Assembly: GCA_024405875.1 (NCBI GenBank)
Contig: JAKSOA010000005.1
Span: forward strand, 1-64,000
Reading direction: 5' to 3'
Length of the DNA stretch: 64,000 nt
Origin: Paludibacteraceae bacterium
GTDB taxonomy: Bacteria; Bacteroidota; Bacteroidia; Bacteroidales; Paludibacteraceae
Shown here piece by piece: positions 14,231 through 32,300 of the stretch (position 1 is its first letter; each line of letters starts with the position of its first letter). The translations under genes and the position numbers were made by a program. A model generated the notes under the pieces. That model was given only the letters and a program-made list of their open reading frames with translations, was not told the DNA's origin and ran no database searches.

Positions 14231-14304
14231 GGTGTGGTAGTTCAGCTGGTTAGAATGCCGCCCTGTCACGGCGGAGGTCGTGGGTTCGAGCCCCATCCAC
14301 ACCG
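14231..14304 (+). tRNA. tRNA-Asp (anticodon GTC)
   Basis: The 74-nt cloverleaf has the acceptor stem GGTGTGG/CCACACC, anticodon stem CCGCC/GGCGG with loop CTGTCAC (anticodon 14265-14267), and a T arm GTGGG-TTCGAGC-CCCAT with one wobble pair. The discriminator base is G, as expected for aspartate tRNA. The CCA end is not encoded. rpmE follows 22 bp downstream and probably shares the transcript. Confidence 0.95.
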
Positions 14305-27424: not shown

Positions 27425-27799
27425 ATGAGTACAAAAGCAAAAGTCTGGTCAATTATTCTAGCCATCATTCTTATTGGCGGTGGTCTGTGGTTCTACATCA
27501 GTTACTACTTTGTGTTTGGTGAAGGCGTAAAGGCAGGAGAGTTAAACTACTGCACATACAAAGGGTATGTTTTCAAAACCTACGAGGGCAAACTTATCCA
27601 GTCAGGGTTCAAGAAGGGCTCTGCCGGCACAATTCAAAGTTATGAGTTCAAGTTCAGCGTTGAGAAGCAAGCCATTGCCGACTCACTTATGCGCTGCTCA
27701 GGCAAGAATGTTGAACTCCACTACAAAGAGTACCTCAACCCAATAGTATGGCGCGGAGTCAGTGAATTTGTTGTTGACAGCATAATCAGCGTGAACTGA
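27425..27799 (+). CDS. Small membrane-anchored protein of unknown function
   Basis: A 124-residue protein with one N-terminal transmembrane segment (about residues 8-30) and a short extracytoplasmic beta-rich domain, including GYVFKTYEGKLIQSGF and VELHYKEYLNP. Similar small proteins are common next to valS in Bacteroidota, but I know no proven function for them. Its end overlaps the converging RhuM gene by 14 bp. Confidence 0.7.
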   Translation: MSTKAKVWSIILAIILIGGGLWFYISYYFVFGEGVKAGELNYCTYKGYVFKTYEGKLIQSGFKKGSAGTIQSYEFKFSVEKQAIADSLMRCSGKNVELHYKEYLNPIVWRGVSEFVVDSIISVN

Positions 27800-28805
27800 C
27801 ATTTTCCCCAAGCAGGTTTCTTAAATGCTTGTCAAAATCAGAATCAATTTGTTGTGTCGGGTTAAATAGTTTGTACTCCTCTTCTGCCTTGCGGTCAGCA
27901 TCTTCACGTGAAATTCTGCCTTTATCTGGTAGTAGTGCATATCTGCGGAATGATAGAAACTCATTAACACTGGCGGCAAACTGTTGCATAGAAAAAGCAT
28001 TCTCACGTTCTATTAAATCCTCTACATAATCAAAGTAACCTGTAACCGCTCTTTCTAATTGGCGTATCTCCTTTTCAGACAAATAGTTTTTAGCAACTTT
28101 TGTATCGGAGAGAAGTATGCGACCATCAGGTGAGTTTTTCCACGTCTGTAATCCCATATTCTCTTTAGTGTGGTCTGCCTTGGTATAAATTATTTCAGGT
28201 GCGGTTTTACCCGTTATAGCATAATGGAAACGGTTTTGCACCATTTGGAAAAACTCCTTTGTTGTAGGTGAATTGCTGTCGTAATCAAAAGAGCACTCTG
28301 CATAGATGTCTGTAATCTGCTGCCATATTCTGCGTTCACTTGCTCGTATTGAGCGGACTCTTTCTAACAGTTCCTTAAAGTAGTCTGTTCCAAATACGGT
28401 CTTGCTTTGTTTCAGACGCTCATCGTCCATAACAAACCCCTTTTTTATGTATTCGTTCAGGACTTGCGTAGCCCACTGGCGGAACTTTGTAGCCTTGGGC
28501 GATGAAATGCGGTAACCAACAGAAATGATTGCATCAAGTGAATAAAAAGATGTTTCGCTAAGTTGTGTCTTCCCCTCAATGGCTCCATGCGGAGTGGTTA
28601 TTTCCATTTTGGAAACAACCACTTCTTTTTGCAATTCACCTTCATCAAATATATTTTTTAGATGCTTACTAATGGCAGGAATGCCAACACCAAACAATTG
28701 TGCAATAGCCTTCTGTGTAGCCCAAATGGTTTCATCCTTAATCACCACCTGTACCCTACCGTCTTCTTCAGGTAGGTTATATAATATGAATTGTATATCT
28801 GTCAT
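27786..28805 (-). CDS. RhuM-family protein
   Basis: About 339 residues with the opening MTDIQFILYNLPEEDGRVQVVIKDETIWATQ, a helix-turn-helix-like segment (QKAIAQLFGVGIPAISKHLKNIF) and YSLDAIISVGYRISSPKATKFRQWAT, the hallmark of the RhuM family found in pathogenicity islands and mobile regions. The biochemical role is not known; phage-antirepressor-like DNA binding is plausible. The promoter at 28837-28844 leaves only about 7 nt before an ATG at 28826 but about 28 nt before the ATG at 28805, so I use the latter. The gene opens the accessory part of the window. Confidence 0.8.
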   Translation of the reverse strand: MTDIQFILYNLPEEDGRVQVVIKDETIWATQKAIAQLFGVGIPAISKHLKNIFDEGELQKEVVVSKMEITTPHGAIEGKTQLSETSFYSLDAIISVGYRISSPKATKFRQWATQVLNEYIKKGFVMDDERLKQSKTVFGTDYFKELLERVRSIRASERRIWQQITDIYAECSFDYDSNSPTTKEFFQMVQNRFHYAITGKTAPEIIYTKADHTKENMGLQTWKNSPDGRILLSDTKVAKNYLSEKEIRQLERAVTGYFDYVEDLIERENAFSMQQFAASVNEFLSFRRYALLPDKGRISREDADRKAEEEYKLFNPTQQIDSDFDKHLRNLLGENVSSR

Positions 28806-28836
28806 TAGTTTTTTTTGCAAATGCATTTAACTCTCA

Positions 28837-28844
28837 CAAATATA
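28837..28844 (-). promoter_or_regulatory. -7 box of the RhuM gene
   Basis: The minus strand reads TATATTTG, matching TAnnTTTG. Confidence 0.6.
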
Positions 28845-28890
28845 CAAAAAATCCTTGATTTCTACAAAAATATTTACGGTCACAACTAAA

Positions 28891-28925
28891 CTCCATCACT
28901 GCCACCGCACCCGTAGTGGCAGGAG
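28891..28925. repeat. Hairpin repeat, copy A
   Basis: CTGCCAC and GTGGCAG form a seven-pair stem around the conserved loop CGCACCCGTA, with outer CTCC/GGAG pairing. A T-rich stretch follows. No plus-strand gene ends here; the nearest plus-strand stop lies 1.1 kb upstream, so it is not an ordinary gene-end terminator. Copies B, C and D are at 37107, 37632 and 39176. Confidence 0.75.
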
Positions 28926-28936
28926 ATTTTTTACGT

Positions 28937-28967
28937 TTTGAAAAACAAAATTTATTTCATAAATTTG
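28937..28967 (+). promoter_or_regulatory. Promoter of the candidate structured RNA and giant amylase gene
   Basis: TTTG (28937-28940) and TAAATTTG (28960-28967) are spaced by exactly 19 bp. It is the only promoter I can see between the RhuM gene and the giant surface protein gene, 353 bp upstream of that gene. Confidence 0.75.
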
Positions 28968-28971
28968 TAGC

Positions 28972-29268
28972 CAATGTCCACGCTGATGCTCAGATGTGAG
29001 CGGTAATGGGTGGGCGTATATAGGGGCGTATGCCCCAAAGACATATTATAAGACGTTTATTAACGTTTTGCTTTTGGCGTATAGAAATCTCGCAAATTTC
29101 AAATCACAGTCAAAGTAAAGCAATAATAGATGTTCAGTGGGTATGTAATTTTGTACTTAAATGTACAACTGCATACAGCGTGGACTTCTATGTTGCTCGT
29201 TTAACTGTGATGGGCAATGCGAGAGCCTCTATACGTGGAACAGCAACAAAGTTGGTCCACGTTTTTTT
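28972..29268 (+). ncRNA. Candidate structured RNA or transcription attenuator, about 295 nt
   Basis: Between a consensus promoter and an intrinsic terminator lie at least four simple hairpins: 28988-29001 (GCTCA-GATG-TGAGC), 29023-29036 (GGGGC-GTAT-GCCCC), 29053-29066 (ACGTT/AACGT) and 29151-29168 (TTGTAC/GTACAA). The terminal hairpin's 3' arm TCCACGT (29256-29262, followed by T7) can pair with a local ACGTGGA at 29233-29239 or, as GTCCACG (29255-29261), with CGTGGAC at 29179-29185. GTTGCT (29192-29197) can also pair with AGCAAC (29242-29247). Such mutually exclusive pairings are the mark of attenuators. No other promoter is visible before the giant gene, so that gene would depend on read-through. 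An 84-codon reading frame (29030-29284) runs across the terminator and has no protein-like features. I do not recognise a known RNA family. Confidence 0.55.
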
Positions 29269-29320
29269 ATGTCCTTGCAGGTAAAATGGAACATGTAGAT
29301 GAATTTTAAATAACAATTAA

Positions 29321-32300
29321 ATGTCAATAGTTATGAAAGAAAAAAGTTTTTACATCAGAATGTTTTTATTATTGGCAGTTTTGCTGATTTCCGCTAATTC
29401 CTTTGCTCAATTGTATGGAATAGAGTTAAACGGAACACCAATAATAGGGGTTGAGAATCCAGAACCATTAGATAAATCATTTCTGGAATTGTCTGTACTT
29501 GATCAACCATTATCAGCAGGAGATGTGGTTAAGTTATTTTGTGTGAATGAGTATGGACGTAGTACTTGGGCAGTTCCTTTAGATGAGGCTAGCGTTTCCG
29601 GAGTGGATTATGTTGATGAACACTCATACATTGTTCGTTCAAGTGGTTGTTACAGTTTTTATATTAAATTGAAGTTTCAAGGTGACCAACTCTATATAGA
29701 TAAAGGCAATTGCAATGTTACTGATATAGAAGATAATAAATACCCGATAGTAAAGATTGGAGAACAATATTGGATGGCAGAGAACCTAAAATGTAGCAAG
29801 TATGACACCCAGTCTGAGGCATACAAGGAGAGAAGATACACTGTTCCTACATCAGAAGATGCCGTTTATACCCCATACTACACTGATGCTTCAGACTGGA
29901 GTAGGTGGAATGAAGACAGTAAAACAAAATATGGTGTAAATCTCACCTATGTTCAGATTGCCAAACTTGGCTACCTCTACAACTGGGCTGCTGCGGTAGG
30001 CGTTGCAGATGGTCAGGGACAGACAACCGCTTTCAGTGGTAACCGTCAGGGTATCTGCCCCAACGGGTGGCACATACCAAGTATGGAAGAATGGCGTACA
30101 ATGCAGACGACAATTCAGGACTTTTACGATAAAGGGATTGAAAACAATGAAGGCATACATATGAAAACAATCCTTGGTTGGTATGATAATGGAGACAACG
30201 ACAATGCCTCCAAATTTTCTGCTTTGCCAGCTGGTTACGCTTTAGGGAGTGATGTGAGCAATGTGGGTATCAACACCCAATATTGGTCATCATTCAATCA
30301 AGAAAGAAACTCCTCATACACACGCTCCTTGGAATACTACGTACCCATTCTGTTCGCTATAAATGAAAATAAGGCTGATGCACTATCTGTGCGTTGTCTA
30401 AGAAACACACCAGCAGAGCCTCAATGTCCTGTCGTTTACCCAACTGAAGGTGCAATCACACTTGTTTTCCGTGCTCCTGCAGAGATGGAATGTACTCCAA
30501 CTATCCAATTTGTAGGTGATGCTTCAGAACATGCATGGTATGTTGGCTACCCTACAAATCCTAGTGCTGAGGCATTGGGAGATGGTTGGTATAGACTTAT
30601 TATCACTAAGGATTATACAACGGGTAAGATTGTTCCAATTCGTATGGACGGAACATCAAGTTGGGATTATCAGGGTAAATACCAACAGGTTGAAGGCCGT
30701 GAGGTGGAATGGTTGAAGATTGCAGATTATGGTGATACACATCAATTGGAGTTTAGTGAGGGTAAAAATGGCGGTGTAGCCTACCTTAATGTTTTTCAGT
30801 GGAATTCAGACCCTTGTGAGCCACCAATACCTGGTGGTGTAGGTACATTCTCAGTTACATTCACAGGTGAGTGCCTACCAAGTGCCGCGGCTGGTGACAA
30901 GGTATTTATTGTAGGTAACTTTGAAGATACTCCTTGGGAGATAGTTCATGAAATGGCACAGGGTACTGGAAATGCTTGGACTTATGTAGACCTCTCTTAT
31001 CCTGCTGATTTCCAATACAAGTTTGTTGTTAAGTACAATAATTCAGATGAAGTGTTGTGGACTCCCGTAGACATTATCCAATTTGATAAGAAGACATACG
31101 ACTTTGAGTTAGAGGGTCCTTGCCCATCAACCCATATAAGAGAGAAATGCAAGGCATCAGACTATCCGCAGGTAACCATAGGCACACAGGTGTGGATGGC
31201 TGAGAACTACCGTTGTAGTAAGTATGACACCCAATCTGAGGCGTACAAGGAGGGGAGATACACTGTTCCTACATCAGAAGATGGAGTCTTTCCGTATTAT
31301 GATGCCGATTCCACTCCATATTATGCTGATGCTTCAGACAGAAGCAAGTGGAATACTGAATATGGTGATTATTCCAGCAATCTCACTGACGCACAGGTAA
31401 AGAAGTTGGGATATCTATACAACTGGGCTGCAGCGGTAGGCGTTGCAGATGGTCAGGAACAGACAACTGCTTTCAGTGGCACCCGTCAGGGTATCTGCCC
31501 CAACGGATGGCATGTTCCGTCAAGAGCGGAGTGGCAAACATTGTATGATTACATATACAGTGTGCAAAAACTCTCGTCAAATGAGGTTGGCAAGTATTTG
31601 AAGACTATCTCTGGCTGGTACAACGGTGGCAACGGCACAGACACGTATGGTTTTGTGGCTTTGCCAGCAGGCTACGCCTATGGAAGTAGCGTGTTCTATG
31701 TTGGCAACGATACTAGTTTTTGGACGGCTACTCCATTTGAGGGCTATGGCTACGCAGCTTACGGTCGTAGCCTCGATTACAGTGGTGACGCCTTAAGTGG
31801 TCACGACTCCGACCACGCTAAGACTTACGGACGGTCTGTGCGTTGCCTTAGAGACACAACAGCAGAAACCAAACGGCCTATAGTGAACCCGACTCCGGGA
31901 ATGGCTACTATTGTTTTCTCAGTGCCTGAGGTTTCTTGTGATTACACTACAATGAATTTCGTTGGAGATGTTCAAGGTTACATTCTGGATGCAGAGGGTC
32001 TTCCTGTAGCTGAATTTGTTGAGGCAGGCTGGTACAAATTGGTACTTCCTCTAACAGAAGGTGGCTCAACACGAGGTAAGATTTGTCCTCAGTCTCTTAC
32101 TGGTAAGAGTCGCTGGGACTATCAGGGTACATACTCTCTTCCAGAGGGTGCTCCTGATTGGATTTCAATCGTTAATGACTACGGTACATCTAACGGACTT
32201 GTCCTTTCAGAGGGTTGTTCAGGTCAAGTGGCATACGTTGATGTTACCGCTTGGCAGACAGATTTCTGTAATATGCCAAATCCTGAGGGAGAAGCTTCTT

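Follow-up and report, generated by a model that had tools for sequence, protein, structure and literature searches.

The DNA analysed here, a 64,000-nt stretch of a Paludibacteraceae genome (the window), carries in front of a large amylase gene what is probably a cis-acting, pseudoknotted transcription-attenuation leader, and this leader would belong to a new multi-copy RNA family of Bacteroidota. The leader covers about 295 nt between a Bacteroidota promoter and a terminator in window positions 28937-29320. A sequence-only reading had proposed a promoter with 19-nt spacing, a structured leader and a terminator, and these could all be read directly from the sequence (Table 1). The leader had a minimum free energy of −116, compared to −72.9 ± 4.8 for 200 dinucleotide shuffles (z −8.96), and no shuffle was as low. 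The hexanucleotide CGTGGA occurs twice in the leader (29179-29184 and 29234-29239). The gap between the U-run and the listed ATG (29321) is 52 nt long (29269-29320) and, as had been stated, holds no promoter of the TAnnTTTG type. A generic promoter scan, which gave 11 promoter-like sites compared to 10.3 in shuffles, had as its sole listing at the leader a sigma-70-type match (28938-28965) overlapping the promoter. The terminator was not listed by a generic terminator scan, because the loop limit of that scan was 3-8 nt.

Covariation among homologues had been named as the check on this proposal. Homologues were aligned first as 21 and then as 100 sequences, and pairs were counted on 99 distinct rows. 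Compensating changes were present, with double changes in 36 of 46 pairs (0 of 500 shuffles was as high) and 703 double-change cells compared to 217 in shuffles. For the whole structure, 95.9% of 4521 cells were paired, and this dropped to 35.6-45.8% when the structure was slid by 1-3 columns. The covariance model R1 was built with Pa, H1, the top of Pb, H2, Mid:Right, the small hairpin and P1, and pair counts for these helices therefore lean towards the model. An unbiased covariation scan recovered S1, the kissing loop, Pa, P1 and the top of Pb, and its top two signals, S1 and the kissing loop, both lie outside R1. In addition, pairing inside one sequence was compared with pairing between sequences (own versus cross), a test in which shared ancestry is incompletely removed.

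As shown by comparison of the homologues, the leader is predicted to fold as a pseudoknot, with S1 and the kissing loop joining the Pa loop to the H2/S1 region. The apical loop of Pa contains the S1 5′ strand and H1, and the S1 3′ strand and H2 sit downstream of the variable Pb hairpin; since the two regions flank Pb, S1 and the kissing loop tie together distant parts of the leader. S1 was the top signal of the unbiased scan (29077-29084 with 29229-29236; z up to 70), had double changes in 6 of 6 pairs and an own-versus-cross z of −33.6, and one of its positions is seen as UA, AU, GC and CG among homologues. The kissing loop was first spotted by eye in the 21 aligned sequences, all of which pair at each of five positions; 99.5% of its cells were paired, with double changes in 5 of 6 pairs. 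The weaker helices of the fold are P1 and Mid:Right. P1 had 83.9% of cells paired, double changes in 6 of 6 pairs and a scan z of 14-25, and it can be fully formed only in read-through RNA, because its 3′ strand starts with the final T of the U-run and extends past it. Mid:Right (98.2% of cells paired; own versus cross z −7.9) is kept mostly via G-U changes, with 6 of 9 pairs varying on one side only and 3 of 9 on both. Overall, 407 G-U cells were found compared to 63 A-C cells, which argues for selection on the sense RNA; this excess comes mainly from Mid:Right, H2, P1 and Pa and is absent in H1 (5 versus 10 A-C) and in the kissing loop (1 versus 3).

Table 1. Coordinates of the leader elements and of the downstream gene in the window.
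Feature	Position	Strand	Description
Promoter	28937..28967	+	TTTG (28937-28940), 19 nt, TAAATTTG (28960-28967); direct reading
X0, GTCCACGCTG	28976..28985	+	Near expected 5′ end; alternative partners local GGGTGGGC or X2
P1 5′ strand, GACATA	29040..29045	+	Pairs with 29268-29273, past the U-run
Small hairpin, GCGT/ACGC	29053..29066	+	99.7% of cells paired
Pa hairpin	29058..29128	+	29058-29077 with 29110-29128; covariation, own versus cross z −11.6
S1 5′ strand	29079..29084	+	Pairs with 29229-29234; pseudoknot with Pa
H1 hairpin	29085..29099	+	Loop 29088-29093 kisses H2 loop 29219-29224
Pb hairpin	29119..29200	+	X1 (29127-29141) with X2; top 29142-29146:29171-29175; apical loop variable
X2, CAGCGTGGAC...	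29176..29187	+	Alternative partner of X0, X1 and X4
Mid, GTTGCTCGTTT	29192..29202	+	Pairs with Right, GAACAGCAAC (29238-29247)
H2 hairpin, GGGC/GCCT	29212..29228	+	Covariation; carries kissing loop 29219-29224
S1 3′ strand	29229..29234	+	Covariation; pairing runs to 29236, overlapping the 5′ arm of the local terminator
Local terminator	29234..29268	+	X3 CGTGGA (29234-29239); 3′ arm X4 TCCACG (29256-29261); U-run of seven T (29262-29268)
P1 3′ strand, TATGTC	29268..29273	+	Covariation; transcribed on read-through only
Gene behind the leader, 2,585 residues	29321..37078	+	Three FISUMP domains, alpha-amylase domain, CBM26, BACON, InlB-B-type repeats

The arms of the terminator take part in competing pairings. 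X4 can pair with X2 or X3, and X2 has three possible partners, namely X1 (in Pb), X4 (at the base of a long terminator topped by Mid:Right) and X0. The claim that the terminator 3′ arm can pair with either CGTGGA copy was borne out: at least five contiguous pairs were found for X2:X4 in 100 of 100 homologues and for the local X3:X4 in 71 of 100, both counts being made without a shuffle control. GCGTGG in X2 is nearly invariant, and a U-run of at least five T in eight is present in 100 of 100 homologues. In the own-versus-cross test (n=92), z was −4.8 for X1:X2, −5.8 for X2:X4 and −7.4 for X3:X4, compared to −0.1 to +2.9 for four negative-control pairs. The X0 region also pairs better with its own X2 (own −16.1, cross −14.9, z −5.7, n=84; controls −0.2 to +0.9), and X0 is missing from some family members. 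Three mutually exclusive sets of predicted pairs, namely X1:X2, X2:X4 with Mid:Right, and X3:X4, are thereby shown to co-vary, and we infer that such coexisting alternatives amount to a regulated switch. The pairing of Mid with Right had been described as a competitor of the local terminator stem. It does compete with this stem, and it has to be read in addition as the possible upper part of the longer terminator that is built on the first copy of CGTGGA. The Pb hairpin (29116-29203, −31.3 kcal/mol) and the long terminator (29176-29261, −32.6 kcal/mol) have nearly equal energies in the window, and when either 29116-29261 or the leader as far as the U-run is folded, the minimum free energy structure has a Pb-like hairpin plus the local terminator, a terminating state.

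In other lineages, a site complementary to X4 (GGGARUCUG type) lies 11-43 nt after the core. Pairing of X4 with this downstream site was stronger within than between sequences (own −9.75, cross −7.72, z −9.2, n=86; controls −1.7 to +1.3), which hints at a role after read-through. A universal anti-X4 site after the U-run was rejected: in a stricter count, the 5% cross quantile was undercut by 19 of 100 homologues and the 1% quantile by 7, and the site is weak in the window (−5.4) and in most own-genus copies listed. The 55 nt past the core did not fold more strongly than shuffles.

In the mechanism that we propose, Pb would form first during transcription. If the docked fold then holds S1, with X2 still in Pb or paired to X0, neither terminator would form and the polymerase would read on; after read-through, P1 would close across the U-run. 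Otherwise, X4 would capture X2 or X3 and transcription would stop. Because the same fold precedes unrelated accessory genes, the trigger would be one shared signal, which might be a protein, an ion, a metabolite or the speed of transcription. Nothing in the topology prevents the long terminator from forming together with S1 and the kissing loop, so docking could instead favour the OFF state, and the alternative pairings by themselves do not fix which state is ON. The position of P1 past the U-run and the anti-X4 site of other lineages argue that the read-through RNA has a folded function as well, perhaps in translation.

The whole window was searched with Rfam 15 (4227 families), and the only match over the gathering cut-off was a tRNA gene at 14231-14304 (66.8 bits). 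At E ≤ 5, the region 28800-29400 gave two snoRNA matches, both far below the cut-off, and 18 member loci gave two tRNAs and nothing else. A search of open-access literature, covering abstracts and selected passages, returned no description of the family, nor is the leader family described in the examined parts of PMC6414381, PMC9723704, PMC8632094, PMC11697453, PMC7366714 and PMC13370916. By Rfam 15 and the literature searched, the leader represents a new RNA family, in agreement with the earlier statement that no described RNA family of this form was known.

Copies of the leader are widespread. In its own genome, blastn found 4 loci and two short chance matches, and the covariance model gave 12 matches at E ≤ 0.01, 8 of them at E < 1e-20. 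On the same contig beyond the window, a weaker leader match (L192, G000:C34:68035-68154, E 6e-16) overlaps the start of a called 229-residue ORF. Among related genomes, 64 of 101 had blastn matches (E ≤ 0.1), of which many are short and due to chance. A 24-25-nt pattern was found in at least 118 stretches of species-representative genomes, and the matches listed include Prevotella, Bacteroides, Phocaeicola oris, Hallella mizrahii, Xylanibacter rodentium, Paraprevotella xylaniphila, Paludibacteraceae, Muribaculaceae and others. All 118 listed stretches were also covariance-model matches; two of these end at a contig end (L112 and L129) and one with its extracted stretch (L078). R1 matched 35 of 149 Bacteroidales genomes and 3 of 296 genomes in a phylum-wide sample. 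A shorter form of the leader, of about 185 nt with a small Pb loop, was modelled as R2, which matched 51 of the 149 and 33 of the 296 genomes, including other orders and classes, with up to 17 matches per genome; the own genome is included in these tallies. Among named cultured strains, Paraprevotella xylaniphila had 10 matches, Xylanibacter rodentium 9, and Phocaeicola oris and Hallella mizrahii 2 each. As antisense echoes of true copies were seen down to E 2.8e-7, a small number of the weakest genome matches (E ≤ 1e-6) may be false, and tallies over more than 40 genomes used stricter filters that lose weak matches.

The leaders are placed in front of genes. Leader and next gene share a strand in 134 of 148 loci with room, at a median gap of 58.5 nt, and the next called ORF is on the opposite strand in 14, compared to 102 of 224 same-strand control gaps, which were counted in both orientations (p 5e-31); ORF calls were crude and MAG contigs incomplete. 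Upstream genes showed little strand bias (81 of 135). A TAnnTTTG box lies no more than 150 nt ahead of the core in 136 of 153 loci, compared to a mean of 16.3 in shuffles, and its commonest position is about 53-64 nt before the core; in the 70 nt that follow the core, only 2 of 153 loci have one (shuffles 5.7). All of 12 further short forms had the box, and in all of them an ORF of 60 codons or more began on the same strand no further than 400 nt away, a count without strand control. Thus, what would be expected of an attenuator leader appears to be present in the sequence, namely a promoter, a leader, a terminator and no second promoter (of the TAnnTTTG type only), as do conserved, mutually exclusive pairings that include the terminator arms.

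The genes behind the leaders are diverse: 81 Pfam families occurred among 139 scanned first genes. Among the 25 families listed of these 81, the commonest were LRR_5 (8), PEGA (4), OMP_b-brl_2 (4) and DUF2971 (4). Glycosyltransferases are also among the downstream genes, and PADLOC matches include AbiH (2) and DndC (1). The suggested tie of the family to FISUMP genes was not upheld, and a FISUMP regulon was rejected, as FISUMP was found in only 2 of 139 first genes; two own-genome copies (L188 and L190) were judged FISUMP by eye. A common downstream function was rejected likewise, with only a mild excess of signal-peptide-like starts by a home-made rule (62 of 128 versus 191 of 612). In the window, a RhuM-family gene (27786-28826) is divergent from the leader; a general RhuM link was discarded, since RhuM was present in only 2 of 101 scanned upstream neighbours (123 collected), which were mixed and included housekeeping genes. 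In locus L186, tandem leaders (1238-1424 and 2363-2549) each lie ahead of a paralogous gene, and leader and gene look as if duplicated as one unit, which would agree with a cis role.

For the gene in the window, the assignment as an amylase holds: residues about 1531-1934 match barley alpha-amylase (E 1e-41). At E 0.001, Pfam gave the starch-binding CBM26 and a weak amylase C-domain, and no catalytic amylase family in the 2,585-residue protein. The start at ATG 29333 (MKEKSFYIRMFLLLAVL...) is signal-peptide-like by eye, and this ATG, not 29321, may be the true start. Of the idea that this gene is switched by a structured leader, the competing terminator pairings in cis are supported by the comparison, and a special link to the amylase is unsupported. 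Because the genes behind the leaders mostly share no relationship, the amylase gives no basis for guessing the signal.

The surroundings of similar leaders often differ. Flanks were compared for 234 locus pairs whose cores share at least 75% identity over 150 nt and for which both flanks were available: 218 were alike on neither side, 10 upstream only, 3 downstream only and 3 on both sides. Since this comparison was made at the nucleotide level, orthologous genes that have diverged are scored as unlike, and mis-assembly of MAGs may contribute. Similarity falls abruptly, from 0.95 to 0.68, where the core ends, and declines more gradually upstream, where it is 0.7-0.8 back to about the promoter, with an alignment background near 0.6. 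In the Prevotella loci L061, L133 and L134, the upstream sequence and the leader are kept and the sequence behind differs. These data suggest either an exchange of cargo with the leader staying in place or a homogenisation of leaders. They would also be compatible with a mobile or recombinogenic DNA element, such as a hairpin target or exchange site, that has no RNA function: most pairs with similar cores differ in their flanks, some pairs are alike upstream only, for instance among the three Prevotella loci, and similarity drops at the core end. Such an element would not, however, account for G-U above A-C cells overall, for the orientation of promoter and gene or for pseudoknotted covariation, and we find it hardly credible, although cargo exchange may be real alongside an RNA function. 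A fourth Prevotella locus, L145, also has like upstream sequence and leader, and among the four loci only some pairs differ behind. Separately, the leader of L020 (4780-5028) is 91% identical to the window leader in its 5′ part, with most of its 3′ part unmatched by blastn, and looks mosaic, as if leaders recombine. Several leader copies in two genomes, G138 (C24, C36, C6) and G160 (C15, C13), are at a distance of 127-290 bases from a contig end, as though repeated or variable sequence close by had broken the assembly. Spread by plasmids or phages was not supported, as blastn with the window core alone gave no match at E ≤ 1e-3 in either collection; in viral contigs (IMG/VR), three pattern scans gave 4 stretches (L154, L199, L200 and L201), of which only L154 was confirmed by the model.

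Three further explanations keep an RNA function and differ in what the RNA would do. It might be a processive antitermination element, in which the nascent folded RNA binds RNA polymerase in cis and enables it to pass internal terminators in long accessory operons; the built-in terminator would simply be the first that it meets. A fixed RNA ahead of differing genes would fit this, as would the longer downstream units (mean 2.9 genes versus 1.9 in controls, n=94 and 143, p 1e-9, on crude ORF calls; p 0.02 in a first version with 12 controls only). On the other hand, many first genes are short, and such an element would not need the competing X1/X2/X3/X4 pairs. UpxY was also rejected as a trans factor: two 99% complete genomes with 9 and 7 leader copies (G032 and G078) have one NusG-like match each (E 7.9e-17 and 1.5e-15), below the UpxY cut-off, in a family search that could miss a diverged paralogue. 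UpxY is thus not required for the leader, which also speaks against processive antitermination, and we regard this explanation as unlikely. Alternatively, read-through might be constant and the fold might control translation or mRNA decay, through P1 and, in some lineages, the anti-X4 site. The double changes in all six P1 pairs across the U-run and the own-versus-cross signal of X4 with its downstream site would favour such a post-transcriptional leader; against it stand the U-run kept in every homologue, the weakness of the anti-X4 site in the window and in most own-genus copies listed, and the shuffle-like folding of the 55 nt past the core, so that we consider it quite unlikely. An independent, trans-acting small RNA ending at the terminator, which had been raised as the alternative, would agree with the frequent promoter box and with the U-run present in all 100 homologues. 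It is weakened because the next gene is so regularly on the same strand, that gene adjoins without a promoter box in the gap, and pairing past the terminator co-varies; we judge it highly improbable.

With the attenuation leader as the preferred reading, we hold only tentatively, and with somewhat more doubt than belief, a wider view: a phylum-wide Bacteroidota switch module with one conserved pseudoknotted sensor, a built-in terminator and a read-through lock, which stays or spreads while the genes behind it are exchanged, such that acquired surface, glycan and phage-defence genes would share one signal. Bacteroidota are a dominant phylum of gut and rumen, and to our knowledge few structured cis-regulatory RNA classes have been described in them. 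The covariation of the leader family is of riboswitch quality. Its gene set, which includes surface LRR proteins, PEGA, outer-membrane barrels, glycosyltransferases, AbiH and DndC, may bear on host contact and phage defence, and through the family it could be tested how accessory genes might be kept silent and switched on jointly.

Among known systems, orphan riboswitch-like attenuators share with the leader the promoter, the complex fold, the exclusive terminator pairings and the occurrence in several copies; T-box leaders are an example of attenuators with these properties. In contrast to such attenuators, the present leader precedes mostly unrelated genes and not one pathway, pairs across the U-run and has no Rfam match. 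A T-box identity, raised by a GUGGAAC resemblance, was rejected, as the T-box-bulge-like GYGGRAC motif is not invariant and Rfam gave no match; no aminoacyl-tRNA synthetase family is among the 25 Pfam families listed (of 81) in first genes. UpxY proteins are NusG paralogues that control the capsule leaders of Bacteroides. Those leaders resemble the present family in being Bacteroidota leaders before surface-polysaccharide genes and, if the proposed switch operates, in antitermination, but the present family has a large conserved fold. In the put RNAs of phage HK022 and in the EAR/LoaP systems, the nascent RNA acts in cis for processive antitermination. The present leader would likewise be a cis RNA before long accessory operons, but its core is about 240 nt long, pseudoknotted and has its own terminator. 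Flavo-1 is an Rfam family, and the present leader matches no Rfam model. Flavobacterium psychrophilum is reported to have structured 5′ regions, like the present Bacteroidota leaders, and Flavo-1 to lie indistinctly sense or antisense (PMC9723704). FopS and GibS are paralogous Bacteroides sRNAs with 12-15 copies and canonical promoters; they share with the present family that they are multi-copy RNAs of Bacteroidaceae, but they are about 65-70 nt long, act in trans on SusC mRNAs, are intergenic, antisense or 3′-derived, and are not leaders (PMC11697453). Compared to attenuators and orphan riboswitch-like leaders as a whole, the family would be unusual in its phylum-wide spread, its unrelated gene set and its pairing across the terminator.
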